From: Pseudomonadota bacterium
Lineage (GTDB): Bacteria; Pseudomonadota; Alphaproteobacteria; Dongiales; Dongiaceae
Length of the DNA: 64,000 nucleotides
Direction of reading: 5' to 3'
Assembly: GCA_021792365.1 (NCBI GenBank)
Contig: JAJYUT010000001.1
Location: 744,001-808,000 of the forward strand
Shown: one piece after another, positions 41,178-57,859 of the stretch
Position numbering within the stretch: the stretch's first letter is position 1
Layout: the number at the start of each line of letters is the position of its first letter
The notes under the pieces: model-generated
Databases searched by the model: none
What the model was told of the DNA's origin: nothing
Seen by the model: the letters and a program-made list of their open reading frames with translations, nothing else
Position numbers and translations under genes: made by a program

Positions 41178-41282
41178 TGTCATCCCGGCCGAGCACAGCG
41201 AGAGCCGGGACCCATGCGGCATCACCGTGGCGCCGGCAGAGCGTATGGATCCAGGGTCGCGCTGCGCGCGCCCGGGATGACA
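41178..41282. repeat. Dispersed palindromic repeat, family A, copy 2
   Basis: A 105-bp element with ends TGTCATCCCGGCC and CCCGGGATGACA and an internal CCGGGACCCATGCGG. It lies between ftsK and the aminotransferase gene, both on the minus strand, so it would be part of the transcript leading into ftsK or separate the two. Confidence 0.8.
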
Positions 41283-46007: not shown

Positions 46008-46559
46008 ATGAAATCCTGGATGCCGCTCCTTGCGGCCGCGGCGCTGACGAGCGCGCTGGCGATAGCGCCAGCGGCCGCGGACGAGGACGCCGCGGTCGAT
46101 TGCGGCAGCACGCCCTTCAGCTTTTCCGGCGAGGGCTATTACGTCGATTGCCTGCGCTACGAGGCCGCGCCCCGCAAGGACGGCGCCAGCGGCCAGAGCC
46201 AGTCGGACATCATCAACGTCACCTCCGACGAGCGCTCCATGTTCCTCACCCTGGTCAGCATCCGCCTCACCTCCACCGGGCTGCACATGCGCTACCAGGA
46301 CCTGCTTCAGAACACGCGCGACTTCTTCAGCGGCGTCGAGCTGAGCGACTGGACCGGCATCGGCTACCAGAGCGGCTACGACACCGCCGAATTCACCGCC
46401 GACATCAGCGGCACCCCCTCCCATTGCATCGCGGTGCAGCGTTACCTCAACCCGGCCTATGGCGGGTTCAAGCGCCACATCATCGGGATGGGCTGCGCCG
46501 CCGGCGGCCTGGACCCGGTCTACGCCGCCCTCCAGAAGATGCGCGCGCCGGGGGACTGA
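46008..46559 (+). CDS. Secreted protein of unknown function
   Basis: The 183-residue product has a clear signal peptide (MKSWMPLLAAAALTSALAIAPAAA, cut before DEDAA) and a mature part with four cysteines (DCGSTPF, VDCLRYE, HCIAVQR, GMGCAAG), probably two periplasmic disulfides. I recognise no domain. Start: ATG at 46008 after GGAGGGGGAC. It is divergent from the ABC ATPase gene and followed by a family A repeat, which may end its transcript. Confidence 0.65.
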   Translation: MKSWMPLLAAAALTSALAIAPAAADEDAAVDCGSTPFSFSGEGYYVDCLRYEAAPRKDGASGQSQSDIINVTSDERSMFLTLVSIRLTSTGLHMRYQDLLQNTRDFFSGVELSDWTGIGYQSGYDTAEFTADISGTPSHCIAVQRYLNPAYGGFKRHIIGMGCAAGGLDPVYAALQKMRAPGD

Positions 46560-46584
46560 AGTTCCGCTACCGGGGTCCCTCTCC

Positions 46585-46686
46585 TGTCACCCCGGCCTTG
46601 AGCCGGGGCCTATGCGATGCGGCCTTGCCGCCGATGGACGGCATGGGTCCCGGGTCGCGCCACTGTGTGGCTTGCCCGGGATGACA
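46585..46686. repeat. Dispersed palindromic repeat, family A, copy 4
   Basis: A 102-bp element with ends TGTCACCCCGGCC and CCCGGGATGACA and the CATGGGTCCCGGGTCGCGC core. It lies between the secreted-protein gene and glnD. Confidence 0.8.
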
Positions 46687-46749
46687 GAGTTGCAAATTGG
46701 CCAGGAGCTTCACTTTCCCTGAAGGGCTCCAAGCCTTATCTTTCCCCCC

Positions 46750-51748: not shown

Positions 51749-54289
51749 CTATTCGTTGCGCAGGAACGGCGCGGCCTTGGCGCCGAGCGCGCGCCAGGAG
51801 CCCCAGAAGCCGAGCACCAGCGCGAGGGCGAGGGCAATGGCCAGCACGCCCGCCAGCACCGTCGGCGCGAGGACGAGCTCCGTCTCGAGGTTGAGCGTCA
51901 GGAACAGCCAGGCGCCGAAACTGCCGATGACGATGGCGAGCGCCGCGCTCACCAGCGCGAGCAGCGCGAATTCCCACAGATAGCCGAGCGCGATGTCGCG
52001 CCGCCGCCCGCCCAGCATCTTCAGCAGCACCGCCTCGTAGATCCGCTTCTCGCGCCCGGCAGCCACCGCGCCGGCCAGCACCAGGATGCCGGCGCCGAGC
52101 GTCGCCAGGGCTGTGCCGCGGATCGCGCCGCCGACCTGGGTCAGCAGATCGAGCGCGGTCGCCAGCGCGTCCTTCACGCGGATGGCGGAGATGTTCGGGT
52201 ATTGCGCGGCGACGCGGTTCATCAGCGCGCCTTCCTCGTCCTCCGGCACGCGCACGGTGGCGATGCTGGTCTGCGGCGCGGATTCCATCAGGCCCGGCGA
52301 GAACACCATCACGAAATTGATGGAGAAGGTCGACCAGTCGACCGCGCGCAGATTGGCGATCGTGCCCGTCACCTCGCGGCCCAGCAGGTTGACGGCGATG
52401 GTGTCGCCGATCTTGAGGCCGAAAGCCTCGGCAGTGCCGCTGTCGAGCGAGATCAGCGGATCGCCTTTGTAGTCTGCCGGCCACCAATCGCCGGCGACGA
52501 CATTGGCATTGGGCGGCGGCGCCGCCGACCAGGTGAGGCCACGGTCGCCGCGCAGGATCCATTCATGGTCCTTGGGCGGCGTGATGCGTTCCACCGGCAC
52601 GTCGTTCATGCGCACGATGCGGCCGCGCAGCATCGGCACGCGCTGGAAATCGTCAGCCCCGGGGGTCGCCATCACGGTCGATTGCAGGCCTGCCACCTGG
52701 TTCGGCTGAATGTCGATGAAATAGAAGCTCGGCGCGCGCGCCGGCATGGAACGCGCGAAGTCGTTGAGGATGCTGTGCTGGATCAGCGCCACCACGATCA
52801 TCACCGTGAGGCCGAGTCCGATGGAGAGCACGATGCTGGCGACCGGCGCGGAGCGGCGGCCGAGCGTGGCAAGGGCGAAGCGCAGGGCGCGCGCGCCCCG
52901 GCCGGGCTTCAGGCGGCGTTGCCCGGCATGGGCGGCCGCCTGGATCAGCGCGGCCAGACCGCGGAACGCCGCCAGGGTCGCGATCGCGGCGAGCGCGAAA
53001 GCGCCGGCCAGCAGCTTGTTCTCCGCCGCCGCGATCACCACCACCGCCAAGGCGAGCCCGGCCGCGCCGACCGCGATGACGTCCTTGCGGTTGACGGTGC
53101 CAAGCTCGACCGCGGCGGCGCGGAACAACTGCGCCGGCTTGGTGCGGCGCGCGCGCAGCAGCGAGGGCAGCGAGAAGGCGAAGGCGGTGAGCGCGCCGAA
53201 GGCCGCGGCCTGCAGCAGCGGCTGCCAGTAGATGCCGGTCGCGAGGTCGACGTCCATCTGCGCCAGCGAGGCCTTGAAGACGAAGGGCGCGGCGCCGCCG
53301 ATCGCCAGCGCGATGATGATGGCGATGGCCGCCATCACGCCGATGGTGATGAGGTTGACGGAGGCGATCTGGCCGGAGGTCGCGCCGACGCATTTCAGCA
53401 TGGCGATTGTGCGCGCCTTGCCCTCCAGATGCGCGCGCACGGCGTTGGCGATGCCCAGGCCGCCGATCAGGAGCGCGCTGAGACCGATGAGATCGAGATA
53501 GGCGCGGGTGTTCTCGAGGAAATTGCGCGTGCGCGCGCCGGCATCCTCGAGCTGGCGGATGCGCCAGCCGGCATTGGGGAACGCGGCGTTGAGCGCGGTC
53601 GCCGCGGCGGCGCGATCGGCCTGCGGCGGCATCTTGATGCGATAGGAGTGATAGACCAGGCTGCCGGGCTGGACGAGGCCGGTGGCGTCCAGCGCTTCCT
53701 GCGAGATCAGGAGGCGCGGGCCGAAGGCGAAGACCTGGGTGGTGGAATCGGGCTCGCGCTCGATCGCGGCGGTGATGAGGAATTCCGTATTGCCGACACC
53801 AACGCGGTCGCCGACCTTCAGCCCCGCGCGCTGCAGCAGCACGCGATGCGCCAGCGCGCCGTAGGTGCCATCCGGCTGGCGCGCGAGGAGCTCGGCGAGC
53901 GGCTTCCGGTCGGTCAGGGTCAGCGCGCCGTAGAGCGGGTAGACGTCGTCGGCGCCTTTCAGCTCCACCAGCACCGGCAGCGCGCCGTCGCTGGTCGGCT
54001 TGGCCATCGCGCGCATCTCGATGACATGCGAGATCTGGCCCAGGCGCTGGATCGCCGCCAGCTCGTCGGGCGTGGCCGCGCGGTGCGTGAGGCGCACCTC
54101 CATGTCGCCGCCCAGGATCGCCTTCGCGTTGGCCGCGATGCCGTTGATCGCCGCCGCGCTGATGGAGCCGATGCCGGCAATGGCGGCGACCCCGAGGACG
54201 AGGCACGCGATGAACAGCCGGAAACCGTGCGTGCCGGCGCGCAATTCGCGCGCTGCGAGACGGAACGGGAGGAGGACGGAGCGGGTCAT
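51749..54289 (-). CDS. FtsX-type ABC transporter permease, YbbP-like
   Basis: The 846-residue protein has an N-terminal helix (FRLFIACLVLGVAAIAGIGSI), a large periplasmic MacB-like domain, FtsX-type helical blocks at about 262-385 and 720-840 (LIGLSALLIGGLGIANAVRAHLEGKARTIAMLK; ALATLGAGILVLAGAVAAGREKRIYEAVLLKMLG) and two further helices in between. This is the YbbP arrangement with ten helices. The ATPase partner is encoded upstream at 54462-55184, interrupted only by a 102-bp palindromic element. YbbAP-type transporters are thought to move hydrophobic or lipid-linked compounds, acting with the TesA-type esterase encoded next door. Confidence 0.87.
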   Translation of the reverse strand: MTRSVLLPFRLAARELRAGTHGFRLFIACLVLGVAAIAGIGSISAAAINGIAANAKAILGGDMEVRLTHRAATPDELAAIQRLGQISHVIEMRAMAKPTSDGALPVLVELKGADDVYPLYGALTLTDRKPLAELLARQPDGTYGALAHRVLLQRAGLKVGDRVGVGNTEFLITAAIEREPDSTTQVFAFGPRLLISQEALDATGLVQPGSLVYHSYRIKMPPQADRAAAATALNAAFPNAGWRIRQLEDAGARTRNFLENTRAYLDLIGLSALLIGGLGIANAVRAHLEGKARTIAMLKCVGATSGQIASVNLITIGVMAAIAIIIALAIGGAAPFVFKASLAQMDVDLATGIYWQPLLQAAAFGALTAFAFSLPSLLRARRTKPAQLFRAAAVELGTVNRKDVIAVGAAGLALAVVVIAAAENKLLAGAFALAAIATLAAFRGLAALIQAAAHAGQRRLKPGRGARALRFALATLGRRSAPVASIVLSIGLGLTVMIVVALIQHSILNDFARSMPARAPSFYFIDIQPNQVAGLQSTVMATPGADDFQRVPMLRGRIVRMNDVPVERITPPKDHEWILRGDRGLTWSAAPPPNANVVAGDWWPADYKGDPLISLDSGTAEAFGLKIGDTIAVNLLGREVTGTIANLRAVDWSTFSINFVMVFSPGLMESAPQTSIATVRVPEDEEGALMNRVAAQYPNISAIRVKDALATALDLLTQVGGAIRGTALATLGAGILVLAGAVAAGREKRIYEAVLLKMLGGRRRDIALGYLWEFALLALVSAALAIVIGSFGAWLFLTLNLETELVLAPTVLAGVLAIALALALVLGFWGSWRALGAKAAPFLRNE

Positions 54290-54320
54290 GATTGTGCCTA
54301 TAAGAGCCCGCTCCCGATGC

Positions 54321-54422
54321 CGTCATGGCAAGGCTTGGCCTTGCCATCCACGAGTTTCGCTCGGCCGTGCCGCGTTGGTGCAGGAAGACTCGCAAATCCC
54401 AAGGCCAAGCCTTGGGATGACG
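54321..54422. repeat. Dispersed palindromic repeat, family B, gene-less copy
   Basis: 102 bp with ends CGTCAT and ATGACG. The left end folds as GGCAAGGC-TTG-GCCTTGCC and the right as CCCAAGGC-CAA-GCCTTGGG, so both ends are hairpins. The segment CATCCACGAG ... CGGCCGTG after the left hairpin matches the sequence that leads into the GTG start codon of the GIY-YIG gene in the longer element at 57071-57460. It lies between ybbP- and ybbA-like genes of one operon. Confidence 0.8.
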
Positions 54423-54461
54423 GAGTATGTTGCAGAATTGGTGCGTTCGACTGAGGCTGCA

Positions 54462-55184
54462 TCACGCCGCCACCCGTGCGCTGTCGCGGACGATGTGGCC
54501 GTCGGCCATGTGGAGCTGGCGGCGGCAGCGGGCGGCGAGGGAAGGATCGTGCGTGATGAGCAGGAGGGTCGCGCCGATCGCGTGCGCGCGCTCGAACATG
54601 AGGTCGATGATCCTGGCGCCGGTGTCGAGGTCGAGGTTGCCGGTCGGCTCGTCCGCCAGCAGGATCTTCGGGCGCGGCGCCAGGGCGCGCGCCAGCGCCA
54701 CGCGCTGCTGCTCGCCGCCGGACAATTGCGAGGGATAATGGCTCAGGCGATGCGCGAGGCCGACGGCGGAGAGGGCGGCCTCCGCGCGCGCGAACGCATC
54801 CGGCGCGCCGGAGAGCTCGAGCGGCACCGCGACATTCTCCAGCGCGCTCATGGTGGGGATGAGGTGAAAGCTCTGGAACACGATGCCGACCTGCTCGCGC
54901 CGCAACAAGGCGAGATCATCCTCCGACATCCTGGTGATCTCGCGGCCGGAGAGCGCGATGCGCCCGCCGGTCGGCTGCTCCAGCCCGGCGATCAGCAGCA
55001 ACAGCGAGGTCTTGCCGGAACCGGAGGGGCCCACGAGACTTACCGTTTCACCCCCGTCAATGTGAAGATGGATGTCCTGCAGGATGTTGACGCGACCGGC
55101 CTCGCTCGCCAGTGTCAGGGATACGTTCTCAAGATGGATCGCCGGGATGGCCGGGCTTATGCATTCAATGCTGCCTTCGTTCAC
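54462..55184 (-). CDS. ABC transporter ATP-binding protein, YbbA-like
   Basis: From the GTG at 55184 (AAAGGTGAG upstream) the protein has 240 residues; the frame is open to 55292. Motifs: Walker A GPSGSGKTSLLLLIAG, Q-loop VFQSFHLIPTMSALENV, signature LSGGEQQRVALARAL, Walker B ILLADEPTGNLD. This is the LolD/MacB/YbbA subgroup that pairs with FtsX-type permeases, here the gene at 51749-54289. Its start region overlaps by about 17 bases with the start of the divergent tesA-like gene, the same divergent pairing as ybbA-tesA in enterobacteria. Confidence 0.88.
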   Translation of the reverse strand: MNEGSIECISPAIPAIHLENVSLTLASEAGRVNILQDIHLHIDGGETVSLVGPSGSGKTSLLLLIAGLEQPTGGRIALSGREITRMSEDDLALLRREQVGIVFQSFHLIPTMSALENVAVPLELSGAPDAFARAEAALSAVGLAHRLSHYPSQLSGGEQQRVALARALAPRPKILLADEPTGNLDLDTGARIIDLMFERAHAIGATLLLITHDPSLAARCRRQLHMADGHIVRDSARVAA

Positions 55185-55821
55185 GCGTCTCACCTTTCGA
55201 ATCGCCGCTGCATATCTTGTGGTCCTCGCCCTGGTCTCACCGGCGCGCGCCGCTGATCCCATCCGCATCCTGGCCTTCGGCGATTCCCTCACGGCGGGCT
55301 ACGGGCTGCCCGAGGCGGAGACGCTGACCGCCCGGCTCGCGGACGCCCTCAACAAGATGGGTCGGCCAGCGGCTGTGATCAATGGTGGTGTTTCCGGCGA
55401 CACGACGGCGGACGGCCTCACCCGAATCGACTGGGCGCTCGCCGACAAGCCCCAGATCATGATCCTGGCGCTGGGCGCCAACGATATGTTGCGGGGCATC
55501 GATCCGGCCTCCACGCGCGCCAACCTGGAAGGAATTATCGAAAAGGCCAGGGGTGCCGGCGTGGAGGTGGTGCTCGCGGGCATGCTGGCCCCGCCCAATC
55601 TCGGCACCGAGTACAAGAGCGCGTTCGATGCCATCTATCCAGGGCTGGCGAAGGCGCATAATCTCCTGCTCATGCCATTCCTGCTACAGGACGTGGCGCA
55701 GATTTCCGACCTCAATCAGGGGGATGGGATTCATCCCAACGGCAATGGCATCGAGGTGATGGTGCGCAATCTCCTGCCCTATGTGACGCAGGCGATGGAC
55801 AGAGTGGAGTCATCATCGTGA
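55168..55821 (+). CDS. tesA: SGNH/GDSL arylesterase, TesA-like
   Basis: From the ATG at 55168 the product has 217 residues: a signal peptide (FRIAAAYLVVLALVSPARA) then the SGNH hydrolase blocks FGDSLTAGYG (nucleophile Ser), VSGDTT, LALGANDMLRG and the Asp-x-x-His of GDGIHPNGNG. It is a periplasmic thioesterase/lysophospholipase/arylesterase of the TesA type. The frame is open to 55072; 55159 is another possible ATG. It is divergent from ybbA, with overlapping starts, and its stop overlaps the GTG start of the FIST gene, so those two are translationally coupled. Confidence 0.9.
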   Translation: MLPSFTRLTFRIAAAYLVVLALVSPARAADPIRILAFGDSLTAGYGLPEAETLTARLADALNKMGRPAAVINGGVSGDTTADGLTRIDWALADKPQIMILALGANDMLRGIDPASTRANLEGIIEKARGAGVEVVLAGMLAPPNLGTEYKSAFDAIYPGLAKAHNLLLMPFLLQDVAQISDLNQGDGIHPNGNGIEVMVRNLLPYVTQAMDRVESSS

Positions 55822-57017
55822 CGCGCTTCCGCGCCGGACATGCGGCCGGCGCCGATTGGCGCGAAGCGGTCGATGCCTGCCTCAAGGAGCTGATGCAGGC
55901 GCCACGCGCCGCCGCACGAGCGAATCAGCCCAGGACGAAATCCCCGGGATCGAATCCGTCGCGGACAAGTCCGCCAGGGACGAATCACTTGGGCTTCCTC
56001 TATGTCACCGACGTGATCGCCGAGCAGGCGGGGGAGATCCTGGACCGCCTGCGCCGCGAGACCGGCGTCGAGCATTGGATCGGCGCGACCGGCATTGGCA
56101 TCCTCGGCGCCTCGGCCCAGGGCAGCGGCGAGTATTACGACCAGCCGGCGGTCAGCGCGCTGATCGCCGACCTGCCGGACGATTCCTTCCGCGTATTTCC
56201 GGGCCGCGGCGACGACGCGGCCGGCGCGGGCAGCGATTGGTTCGAGACGCAGCGTCCCAACGTGGCGATCGTGCACGCCGATCCGCGCGCCCAGCGCCTG
56301 CCGGTGATGCTGGACCGGCTGGCGGAGGCCAGCGGGGCCTTCCTGGTCGGCGGCCTCGCCTCCTCGCGCGGGCCGATGGTGCAGATCGCGGGCGAGGTCA
56401 GTGAAGGCGGCGCCTCCGGCGCCTGGATCGGCTCCTCGATCGAGCTGGTGGCCGGCCTCAGCCAGGGCTGCGCGCCGATCGGCCCCGCGCATATCGCCAC
56501 CACGGCGCAGAAGAACGTGGTGATGGAGATCGACGGACGGCCCGCCCTCGACGTCTTCAAGGAGGAGATCGGCGACGTGCTGGCGCGCAACCTGGAGCGC
56601 TGCGCCAACTTCATCTATGCCGCGCTGCCGGTCGGCGGCTCGGACACCGGCGACTACCTGGTGCGCAACCTGATGGGCATCGATCCCAACAAGGGCTGGA
56701 TCGCGATCGGCGACCACATCGAATCAGGGGACGGGATCATGTTCACCAAGCGCGACCGCCCCAGCGCCAACGCCGATCTGGTGAAAATGCTCGACCGCCT
56801 GAAGAAGCGCATCACGCGGCCGATCCAGGGCGGGCTCTATTTCTCCTGCCTGTCGCGCGGGCACAACCTGTTCGGCGATGCGGGGACGGAGATGGCGATC
56901 CTGCGCGAGCAACTGGGCGATATCCCGCTCGCCGGCTTCTTCGCCAATGGCGAGATCAGCCACCGCCGCCTCTACGGCCACACCGGCGTCCTCGCCCTGT
57001 TCGTGGAACCGGAATAA
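55818..57017 (+). CDS. FIST-domain signal transduction protein
   Basis: The 399-residue protein has FIST_N (about 60-225: GFLYVTDVIAEQAGEILDRLRRETGVEHWIGATGIGILG) and FIST_C (about 235-385: GRPALDVFKEEIG; CLSRGHNLFGDAGTEMAILREQLGDIPLAGFFANGEI). FIST modules are small-molecule sensors often found with histidine kinases or diguanylate cyclases, but this one stands alone. The region at residues 36-58 is a Pro/Ser/Arg-rich insertion not expected in the fold. Start GTG at 55818 with GGAG upstream, overlapping the tesA stop. Confidence 0.85.
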   Translation: MTRFRAGHAAGADWREAVDACLKELMQAPRAAARANQPRTKSPGSNPSRTSPPGTNHLGFLYVTDVIAEQAGEILDRLRRETGVEHWIGATGIGILGASAQGSGEYYDQPAVSALIADLPDDSFRVFPGRGDDAAGAGSDWFETQRPNVAIVHADPRAQRLPVMLDRLAEASGAFLVGGLASSRGPMVQIAGEVSEGGASGAWIGSSIELVAGLSQGCAPIGPAHIATTAQKNVVMEIDGRPALDVFKEEIGDVLARNLERCANFIYAALPVGGSDTGDYLVRNLMGIDPNKGWIAIGDHIESGDGIMFTKRDRPSANADLVKMLDRLKKRITRPIQGGLYFSCLSRGHNLFGDAGTEMAILREQLGDIPLAGFFANGEISHRRLYGHTGVLALFVEPE

Positions 57018-57019
57018 GG

Positions 57020-57043
57020 GCCCATTGGGCTAGCCCAATGGGC
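57020..57043. repeat. Perfect 24-bp palindrome after the FIST gene
   Basis: GCCCATTGGGCT is followed directly by its exact complement AGCCCAATGGGC, starting three bases after the stop codon. It would form a hairpin in RNA and may end or stabilise the tesA-FIST transcript, although no T-tract follows. It lies 28 bases before the left end of the GIY-YIG element. Confidence 0.65.
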
Positions 57044-57070
57044 TCTGGCCCGGCCGACCTCCGCTCCTCC

Positions 57071-57460
57071 CGTCATGGCCAAGCTTGGCTTGGCCATCCA
57101 CGAGTTCGGCCGTGACCAAGCAACGCCAGGCTTGGCTCTACATCATGGCGAACAAGCCAAATGGAACGATTTACGTAGGTGTTACAAACGATCTTGCCCG
57201 GCGTGCATGGGAACATAGAACAGGTGCCGTCCCGGGCTTCACCAAACGCTATGGGCTGAAGCGGCTGGTCTACGCCGAGCCGCACGAGACGATGCCTCAG
57301 GCCATCACGCGGGAGAAGAACGTCAAGAGCTGGCCTCGCGCTTGGCGTATTCGGTTGATCACCGCCGCCAATCCTGGTTGGGAGGATCTATACGAGGCGC
57401 TTTTGCAATGAGCCGCGATGCGTCACACGCGTGGATGCCAAGCCAAGCTTGGCCATGACG
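57071..57460. mobile_element. GIY-YIG element bounded by 31/32-bp inverted repeats (family B)
   Basis: The left end (57071-57102, starting CGTCATGGCCAAGCTTGGCT) and the right end (57430-57460, ending AGCTTGGCCATGACG) are inverted copies that differ by a single missing base. Each contains the self-complementary word GCCAAGCTTGGC. Between them lies only a gene for a small GIY-YIG nuclease whose GTG start codon is ten bases inside the left repeat boundary. No target duplication is visible. A 102-bp relative without the gene is at 54321-54422. I read this as a small mobile or mobilisable unit; movement is inferred from architecture. Confidence 0.7.
57112..57411 (+). CDS. Small GIY-YIG nuclease domain protein
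   Basis: From the GTG at 57112 the product has 99 residues; the frame is open from a TTG at 57085 inside the left repeat. The single domain is complete: LYIMANKPNGTIYVGVTNDLARRAWEHR carries the 'LYI...IYVG' pair that stands for GIY-YIG and the catalytic Arg, and REKNVKSWPRAWRIRLI supplies the Glu and a basic helix. Such stand-alone nucleases (related to UPF0213/YhbQ) occur in many copies in some alphaproteobacteria. The gene fills the space between long inverted repeats. I infer that the enzyme cuts at, or was mobilised with, those hairpins. Confidence 0.85.
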   Translation: MTKQRQAWLYIMANKPNGTIYVGVTNDLARRAWEHRTGAVPGFTKRYGLKRLVYAEPHETMPQAITREKNVKSWPRAWRIRLITAANPGWEDLYEALLQ

Positions 57461-57522
57461 GGGGTATAAGCGAGTCCAGCCGCGGACACCGATCGCTCGA
57501 ATTTTACGAAAAATGTGCGCTG

Positions 57523-57663
57523 TTACTGCGGCGTGTATCCGGTGGAGCCGCCGAGCGTGAAGCGGTCCTGCTGCGCGCGATGCTCCATGCGCTCGATCAC
57601 GGCAAAGCCCATGGTCAGGACCGCTACGAACAGGATCGACAGAACGGTGATTGGCCTTCGCAT
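57523..57663 (-). CDS. 46-residue single-pass membrane protein, ERxExRAxQDR tail
   Basis: From the ATG at 57663 the product is MRRPITVLSILFVAVLTMG plus a short tail that begins FAVIERMEHRAQQDRFTLGG and ends TPQ. One hydrophobic helix follows a basic N-terminus, with a charged tail after it. The gene at 57892-58068 encodes a second protein of the same design with the matching tail ERLEQRATQDRLTIGD. Conservation of the tail between the two argues for a real gene although the ribosome-binding site is poor. The topology suggests N-in or a cleaved signal. Function unknown. Confidence 0.55.
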   Translation of the reverse strand: MRRPITVLSILFVAVLTMGFAVIERMEHRAQQDRFTLGGSTGYTPQ

Positions 57664-57859
57664 ATTTTTTAACCGCGCGTGTTGCGCCGCGGTTCCCTCT
57701 CCGACCGTCATCATGCGGCAGCTTGTTTGAGTACTCGTTAATGCGGCGCGTCCCGCGTGCAGAAATGCGCGCCAAGTGCGGCGAGTCACGTCTGCATGTG
57801 TCTTAAGACGAACGATGTGATGCTCACCGACGCGGTGCTCGCCCGACAACGCCGCGAGG

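Follow-up and report, generated by a model that had tools for sequence, protein, structure and literature searches.

In RAYT systems, one gene lineage accompanies each palindrome type, the gene is bracketed by palindromes, and gene-less palindrome pairs also occur. The Ssn family, site-specific single-stranded nucleases with a GIY-YIG domain and cognate repeats (the NTS of Neisseria), was reportedly described by Chenal et al. in Nature Communications in 2025, and its role is said to be the cleavage of ssDNA and the tuning of transformation. We know of no claim in the Ssn work of an element that changes position, or of an identity between its repeats and the CGTC super-family of repetitive extragenic palindromes (REPs).

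The CGTC REPs consist of a CGTC or TGTC tag, a stem of 8–9 bp that begins with A, a loop of 4–5 nt and a CCA tail (Di Nocera et al., 2013; PMC3733652). They occur mainly in alphaproteobacteria, as head-to-head pairs in which heterodimers are common, and the dRS3 repeats of Neisseria form their family CGTC-1 (PMC3733652). Di Nocera et al. stated that the super-family REPs 'apparently lack a dedicated transposase'; their paper also contains part of the RAYT features given above, and its main text reports no gene associated with the CGTC REPs and has no occurrence of GIY. Our literature search returned no paper joining GIY-YIG with 'repetitive extragenic palindromic' or with dRS3, a wider search gave no title making a GIY-YIG/REP link among the matches listed, and the accessible text of PMC12306157 and of PMC6006769 has no occurrence of GIY-YIG or GIY.

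Here, we analyze a locus where, in contrast to that report, a GIY-YIG gene is bracketed by CGTC-tagged palindromes. The initial annotation of this DNA knew of no described system of this kind. That statement needs correction, because the palindromes fit the CGTC REPs, and in view of the Ssn family reportedly described in 2025.

Results

A GIY-YIG gene enclosed by inverted palindromes

The window, by which we mean the whole 64-kb stretch of DNA that was analyzed, belongs to a host genome of 5.43 Mb and contains a GIY-YIG gene enclosed by inverted palindromes (Table 1). The arms of the 390-bp element cover 57069–57094 and 57437–57462 (26 nt, 100% complementarity); arms and tails together make up repeats of 32 and 31 bp, and alignment confirms the earlier claim that these differ by one base, a C that is missing on the right. 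When folded as single-stranded DNA, the two palindromes reach z values of −5.1 and −2.8. The left REP lies directly 5′ of the nuclease start codon and the right REP directly 3′ of the stop, and the ORF matches Pfam PF01541 at 6.3e-12, which bears out the original description of a single-domain GIY-YIG gene starting immediately after the left repeat. A separate perfect palindrome, GCCCATTGGGCTAGCCCAATGGGC, is located at 57020–57043, 3′ of the upstream FIST-like gene; it lies outside the 390-bp element and is probably the terminator of that gene.

Table 1. Coordinates of the REPs and of the nuclease gene within the window
Feature	Position	Strand	Remarks
Possible further long-loop CGTC REP	41246..41281	-	loose finder; sequence resembles L002-type REP; two congeners have REPs of other types in this gap
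Left REP (GTCACCCCGG type) of site A pair	46585..46610	+	read by eye and from congener site comparison
Right REP (long-loop GTCATCCCGGGC type) of site A pair	46645..46686	-	read by eye
Gene-less REP pair, REPIN-like, 102 bp (site C)	54321..54422	.	stems GGCAAGG and CCCAAGG
Left REP of gene-less pair	54321..54350	+	
Right REP of gene-less pair	54396..54422	-	tail degenerate
Left CGTC REP of gene-carrying element	57071..57100	+	tag CGTC, stem ATGGCCAAG/CTTGGCCAT, tail CCA
GIY-YIG (Ssn-like) nuclease gene	57112..57411	+	GTG start, 99 aa
Right CGTC REP of gene-carrying element	57430..57460	-	inverted copy, one base deleted

The repeats have the tag, the stem length, the initial A, the loop length and the CCA tail of the CGTC REPs, and the palindromes around GIY-YIG genes fit that super-family. 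Our strict finder searches for GTC, a stem of at least 7 pairs beginning with A, a loop of at most 8 and TCCA; since the finder itself demands GTC, A-T and CCA, the free observations are the base before GTC, the stem letters and the loops. Near GIY-YIG genes, the base preceding GTC is C in 178 and T in 34 REPs (n = 220), and the REP forms are 26–29 nt long. The finder produced 257 matches in 1.32 Mb (the 80 genome_contigs loci) and none in shuffled or reversed sequence.

Three related GIY-YIG genes are present in the host genome, each flanked by palindromes of a different REP type: CGTCATGGCCAAG..CTTGGCCATCCACGAG around the window gene, GTCACCCCGGCCTTGAGCCGGGGTCCA around a second gene (L003) and a long-loop GTCATCCCGGGC..GACCCGGGACC around a third (L002). 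The locus of a fourth, distant GIY-YIG gene (L004) contains no strict REP. A Y1/RAYT transposase (PF01797) has no match in the host genome, while the same control search was positive in 5 of 14 genomes; we therefore rejected a RAYT as the mover of these REPs.

The nuclease

The residues G18, Y21, G23, R31, E68 and N87 are unchanged across 57 aligned GIY-YIG sequences, and Tyr, Arg, Glu and Asn are the catalytic residues of GIY-YIG enzymes. The window protein is a single-domain GIY-YIG protein with these conserved core residues and with the length of about 90–100 aa expected for Ssn. Its homologue in N. gonorrhoeae, which we take to be the described Neisseria Ssn nuclease, is 46.7% identical to it and is located amid dRS3-like repeats. 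The likeness to the Ssn family comprises the single-domain GIY-YIG protein, the cognate multi-copy repeats and homology to the Neisseria member.

An AlphaFold model of the window protein (pLDDT 91) has UPF0213 (1zg2), Slx1, UvrC and I-TevI as its nearest folds; the best Z of 6.9 is middling and may reflect merely a shared arrangement. The GIY-YIG domains of Slx1, UPF0213 and UvrC have the predicted fold in common with it, and we met no tie to repeats for them here. Homing endonucleases of the I-TevI type resemble it in the catalytic domain and in the notion of being copied when a cut is repaired, but the window protein has neither an intron match nor a separate DNA-binding domain. A group I intron homing endonuclease was rejected (TIGR01453 at 21 bits against a cut-off of 56, and no Rfam intron match at 54000–57800), as was a structured RNA, for which Rfam had no match over the same interval. 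A phage origin was rejected on the absence of a match at 1e-5 in 50,697 phage records; a PHROGs search gave weak homing-endonuclease matches only. PADLOC had no defense-system match, and a defense system was likewise rejected.

The GIY-YIG genes are mostly under purifying selection. In 9 of 13 hand-picked pairs, dN/dS is between 0.01 and 0.08, one of the nine including a gene with an in-frame stop (L065). Two pairs with L038 have values of 0.25 and 0.35, perhaps an artifact of an ungapped comparison with a shorter row; the L087/L107 pair has 0.21, and the L060/L069 pair has a dN of 0.024 with a dS of 0. In-frame stops occur in 6 of the 103 GIY-YIG loci described below.

Gene-less REP pairs

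The 102-bp element at 54321–54422 has the CGTCAT/ATGACG ends and the compensated stems first noted for it. The earlier reading, in which it retains the sequence around the nuclease start codon as an internal-deletion derivative of the gene-carrying element, is not supported. The shared start-codon sequence is a coincidence: CATCCACGAG is merely the REP tail, and CGGCCGTG is found in one of the 11 distinct gene-less REP places checked in the host genome (12 loci, L009 and L185 overlapping), namely the one at 54321. An origin by deletion is rejected because the repeat joins two different stems at a near-constant spacing with a variable spacer, like many gene-less pairs, whereas pairs that bracket a gene in the same list consist of equal stems.

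Among window-type REPs, found in the host's own genus and in one further genome (G005), there are 28 head-to-head gene-less pairs, and 21 of them measure exactly 68 bp start to start. For GTCACCCCGG-type REPs, 14 of 17 gene-less pairs have a spacing of 56 bp. These counts cover pairs with both halves matching the REP patterns; the right half of the 54321–54422 pair was missed by the pattern on account of its degenerate tail. The spacer sequences vary among the gene-less copies of the host genome. All 45 gene-less pairs (28/28 and 17/17) join two different stems, as in the heterodimers of the CGTC REPs, and all four gene-bracketing pairs of the same own-genus and G005 list have equal stems. Beyond this group the equal-stem rule fails, with identical halves in 23 of 66 gene-bracketing pairs. 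Judged by its sequence, the 54321–54422 repeat is one of many REPIN-like gene-less REP pairs.

Association of the gene with REPs

We assembled 80 loci, kept out of 302 from genome_contigs, and 26 of 30 loci from the host's own order (16 genomes), leaving 103 after removal of three duplicates (L019 = L062, L021 = L102, L044 = L048); the weak order loci L029, L030, L041 and L042 were excluded from the REP counts. L029 and L041, which are pieces of one place in G014, contain REP-like inverted repeats. Among the duplicates, L044 = L048 corresponds to Dongia deserti, of the host's own genus, and L021 = L102 to Dongia mobilis, of its family, and the host is accordingly taken to be a Dongia-like alphaproteobacterium. 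A strict CGTC REP lies within 250 bp of the gene in 94 of the 103 loci, REPs are present on both sides in 66, and they are inverted with their tags outward in 58. Leaving out the 16 Bradyrhizobium loci at a common site brings these counts to 78, 51 and 43 of 87. In a set from which 15 of those loci and a further 7 same-site partners were taken out, and in which some same-site pairs are still present, they are 72, 47 and 39 of 81. Among 139 control genes whose gaps on either side measure 100 bp or more, 14 have a REP nearby, and none has REPs on both sides or with tags outward; 804 other genes in the same loci have a REP on the left only in 28 cases, on the right only in 31 and on both sides in none. 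The repeats accompany other GIY-YIG copies as well as that of the window. No strict REP is near the gene in 9 of the 103 loci, and the distant GIY-YIG loci L004, L030, L042 and L166–L171 have no strict REP.

When flanking inverted repeats were scored without reference to hairpins, 67 of 79 loci scored above the 99th percentile obtained for 468 random positions. The median score was 27.5 for the observed flanks, 14.5 for mismatched flanks of different loci and 9 for random positions; mismatched flanks score fairly high because REPs are alike across loci. A plasmid collection contained 37 records with a GIY-YIG match, and we examined the flanks of 14 hand-chosen ones. Flanking inverted repeats scored above 14.7 in 10 of these 14 loci, where the threshold had been set on 200-bp flanks and the plasmid loci were scored with 250-bp flanks. 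The ten, among them N. gonorrhoeae, Aeromonas, Sphingobium, Rhizobium and Shinella, have CGTC-like repeats in seven cases and other sequences in three (Planktothrix, Spirosoma and S. meliloti). The four loci below the threshold were Photobacterium, where REPs lie on a single side, Subdoligranulum and two Rhizobium tumor-plasmid loci.

Several records in the plasmid collection are worth describing individually. In Rhizobium sp. CIAT894 (L139), REPs beside the GIY-YIG gene follow one another every 271 bp with their orientation alternating, which may represent a tandemly amplified REP unit. On Planktothrix plasmid p1 (L136), a GIY-YIG gene with its own repeats is located between an MmeI-type restriction gene and the DISARM gene drmA. 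The records NZ_CP119142.1 (2.2 Mb), NZ_AP026896.1 (4.9 Mb) and CP090106.1 (3.7 Mb) resemble, in their length, chromosomes labeled as plasmids.

Gene and REP also co-occur across 144 genomes of the class, in which GIY-YIG was detected at E ≤ 1e-10 in 53 and REPs of one common pattern in 17. The gene is present in 15 of 17 REP-positive and 38 of 127 REP-negative genomes at this cut-off (p = 5e-6), and in 14 of 17 and 32 of 127, respectively, at E ≤ 1e-25 (p = 8e-6). A single REP pattern was used, which is perhaps part of the reason why 32 of the 127 REP-negative genomes hold a strong GIY-YIG match. One genome scored as positive for both (G087, 4 REPs) has a distant GIY-YIG gene only. In G081 (16 REPs) and G093 (31 REPs), no close GIY-YIG gene was found; a lost partner, an assembly gap or another enzyme are possible readings.

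Matching of REP type to gene lineage

Within an element, the left REP and the right REP have a similarity of 0.929, compared with 0.792 across elements (66 loci; 0 of 5000 permutations), and the similarity of the proteins correlates with that of their REPs (Mantel r = 0.49, n = 94; 0 of 2000). Placed on a protein tree of 112 rows, 98 of them labeled, the REP loop class requires 25 changes, compared with 48 on average after shuffling (0 of 1000), and the distinction between 4- and 5-nt loops requires 3 changes against 9.7 (0 of 1000). The relatedness of the organisms inflates these statistics, and the case within a family is therefore the better one: across the 22 rows of the host's own family, the loop class requires 7 changes against a shuffled mean of 10.9 (0 of 1000). 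CCAAGG-type REPs are present in 5 of the 17 family genomes, four of the host's own genus and G005. Two GIY-YIG genes of G005 lie exactly between CCAAGG-type REPs and belong to the same clade as the window protein (95/90); the other two G005 genes of this clade have REPs with the same CTTGG loop and different stems. One mismatch was found in G011, which has 7 GTCACCCCGG-type REPs, yet its GIY-YIG gene bears another REP type.

The loop type of the REPs tracks the protein phylogeny, and gene and palindrome are co-specific. The original proposal of a partnership between this nuclease family and the palindromes, comparable to that of RAYTs with REPs, is supported.

Occupied and empty sites among congeners

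Both occupied and empty sites are present among the congeners, and the content differs among them at five sites (A, B, X, Y and C), in place of a constant position without empty sites. At site B, the gap of the 390-bp element, the gene-carrying element is present in the host genome, and absent from G009 and G016, and G010 has another REP pair at the same point. At site A (gap 46556–46722, about 10 kb from site B in synteny), G009 and G010 hold a window-type gene element and the host only a mixed REP pair. The host gene at site B branches outside a group of the site-A genes of G009 and G010 and the four G005 genes (98/61), and sites A and B may therefore hold paralogues rather than one moved copy.

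The L003 lineage (100/99) provides the firmer case of one gene lineage at different sites in different species. It occupies site X in the host and site Y in G009; G010 has it at site Y as well, in reversed orientation. The host genome and, within reach of its contig, G016 have an empty site Y. In G009, site X holds a different gene lineage with a different REP, between flanks that are 79–85% identical. A reading of the G009 gene L032 as an orthologue of the host L002 gene was rejected, because L032 is the sister of the L003 lineage in the tree (90/94). The site of the L002 gene itself (C17) was left out of the site count, since its relatives are rearranged or have a REP-like pair.

Site C holds three different REP pairs in the host, G009 and G010. 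The gaps at 46.6 and 54.3 kb both contain REPs or a GIY-YIG gene in all three genomes, with differing types, and the 41.2-kb gap is probably re-used by REPs in the same three; the loose finder behind its host entry in Table 1 gave 3 matches in the window against 0–3 in shuffles, that is, near chance. The re-use of gaps may represent exchange of REP into REP, or merely sites that are permissive.

A comparable situation is found on Sphingobium plasmids, where fnrL and a gene for a response regulator enclose a gap. The gap contains a GIY-YIG element in seven records, one of them frame-shifted (TomTYG73), and is without one in five (TomTYG64, 65, 72, 74 and S. herbicidovorans), three partial matches (H90–H92) being excluded from these counts. 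In TomTYG64 (L161), a single palindrome tagged at both ends corresponds to the joined outer halves of both REPs, and TomTYG74 (L162) has a mutated version of it; the double-tagged palindrome is possibly an excision scar. A near search of the Rhizobium CIAT894 plasmids yielded partial matches, and none of the matches listed provided an empty site that could be used.

The gene can also be stable. In Bradyrhizobium, 16 of 17 loci occupy one site and one (L076) lies elsewhere, which counts against mobility. In Bradyrhizobium niftali (L121, 8624–11462), the gene presumably lies between dnaN and recF, next to dnaA, in the replication gene cluster; its flanks are shared by 15 further loci of Bradyrhizobium or Bradyrhizobiaceae. 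The comparisons among congeners caught no transposition event, and their flanks are too diverged for exact junctions and a target duplication to be defined at the empty sites.

Discussion

GIY-YIG genes are bracketed by CGTC REPs, gene and REP type are co-specific, gene-less pairs have a near-constant length, and positions change among congeners. We have high confidence that an Ssn-like nuclease recognizing the hairpin of its own REP explains the bracketing and the co-specificity. Going further, we consider it reasonably, though not strongly, probable that the 390-bp unit constitutes a small autonomous element, whose Ssn-type nuclease would recognize the hairpin of its own REP and spread both gene-carrying and gene-less copies. 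The REP would turn into a hairpin when single-stranded, at a replication fork, during repair or in incoming DNA. The nuclease would identify its own REP type by tag, loop and tail, and would cut in or beside the hairpin. The cut could then be repaired by re-joining or by copying from another REP-bracketed unit, and a unit would occasionally be moved or copied. Gene-less pairs such as 54321–54422 would be non-autonomous passengers, served in trans. Most likely, it is the cut that would drive the movement of gene-carrying and gene-less units.

The same nuclease might recognize and cut its cognate REP without mobilizing it. The repeats would then be address labels, for example for the cutting of incoming or exposed single strands or for the tuning of transformation or recombination, and their spread and site changes would be left to ordinary recombination and slippage. 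We doubt this explanation but regard it as a serious possibility. It agrees with the role reported for Neisseria Ssn/NTS, with the gonococcal homologue amid dRS3-like repeats and with the stable inheritance at a single site of 16 Bradyrhizobium loci, and a deletion by slippage could have left the double-tagged palindrome of Sphingobium TYG64 and TYG74. On the other hand, the near-constant gene-less pairs (68 bp in 21/28, 56 bp in 14/17), together with a REP type that tracks the gene lineage, suggest propagation as units, and the L003 lineage is at different sites in congeners.

Two further readings are far less probable. One makes the GIY-YIG gene an ordinary passenger: REP pairs would gather at permissive intergenic sites, bracketing would arise by chance, and a RAYT or another transposase would move the REPs. 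Re-used REP sites with differing types (46.6, 54.3 and probably 41.2 kb in the host, G009 and G010) speak for it, but it is already disfavored, and very improbable in our estimate, given that none of the 139 gap-flanked control genes has REPs on both sides, that the host genome is without Y1_Tnp and that the bracketing REPs match the gene lineage. Slightly less credible still is that the palindromes are not mobile ends but regulate the gene, as a terminator or an attenuator or through autoregulatory cleavage of the mRNA; the placement of the left REP directly upstream of the start and of the right REP directly downstream of the stop would suit such a role, yet the same REPs occur at many gene-less places across the genome and stand inverted, with tags outward, on both sides of the gene in 58 of 103 loci.

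Returning to the autonomous element, its resemblance to RAYT/REP/REPIN systems lies in one gene lineage per palindrome type, inverted palindromes around the gene and gene-less pairs with a variable spacer, and it differs from them in an unrelated enzyme (GIY-YIG here, HuH Y1 there) and in the tag (CGTC here, GTAG there). Relative to the Ssn work, the mobility and the connection to the CGTC REPs may be new. More tentatively, as a generalization that is quite possible, the GIY-YIG proteins could be the dedicated mobilizers of the CGTC REP super-family. They would carry out a transposase-free, replication- or repair-dependent homing of hairpin pairs of about 100 bp, with an origin apart from RAYT/REPIN and repeated overwriting between REP types at the same intergenic sites.

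The question of an enzyme for the CGTC REPs has been open since 2013, and a type-matched gene that these REPs bracket now makes it accessible to a direct binding or cleavage test. Such REPs are widespread in alphaproteobacteria and include the dRS3 of Neisseria. If their movement depends on the nuclease, palindromic repeats would have acquired an enzyme partner at least two times, from unrelated nuclease folds.
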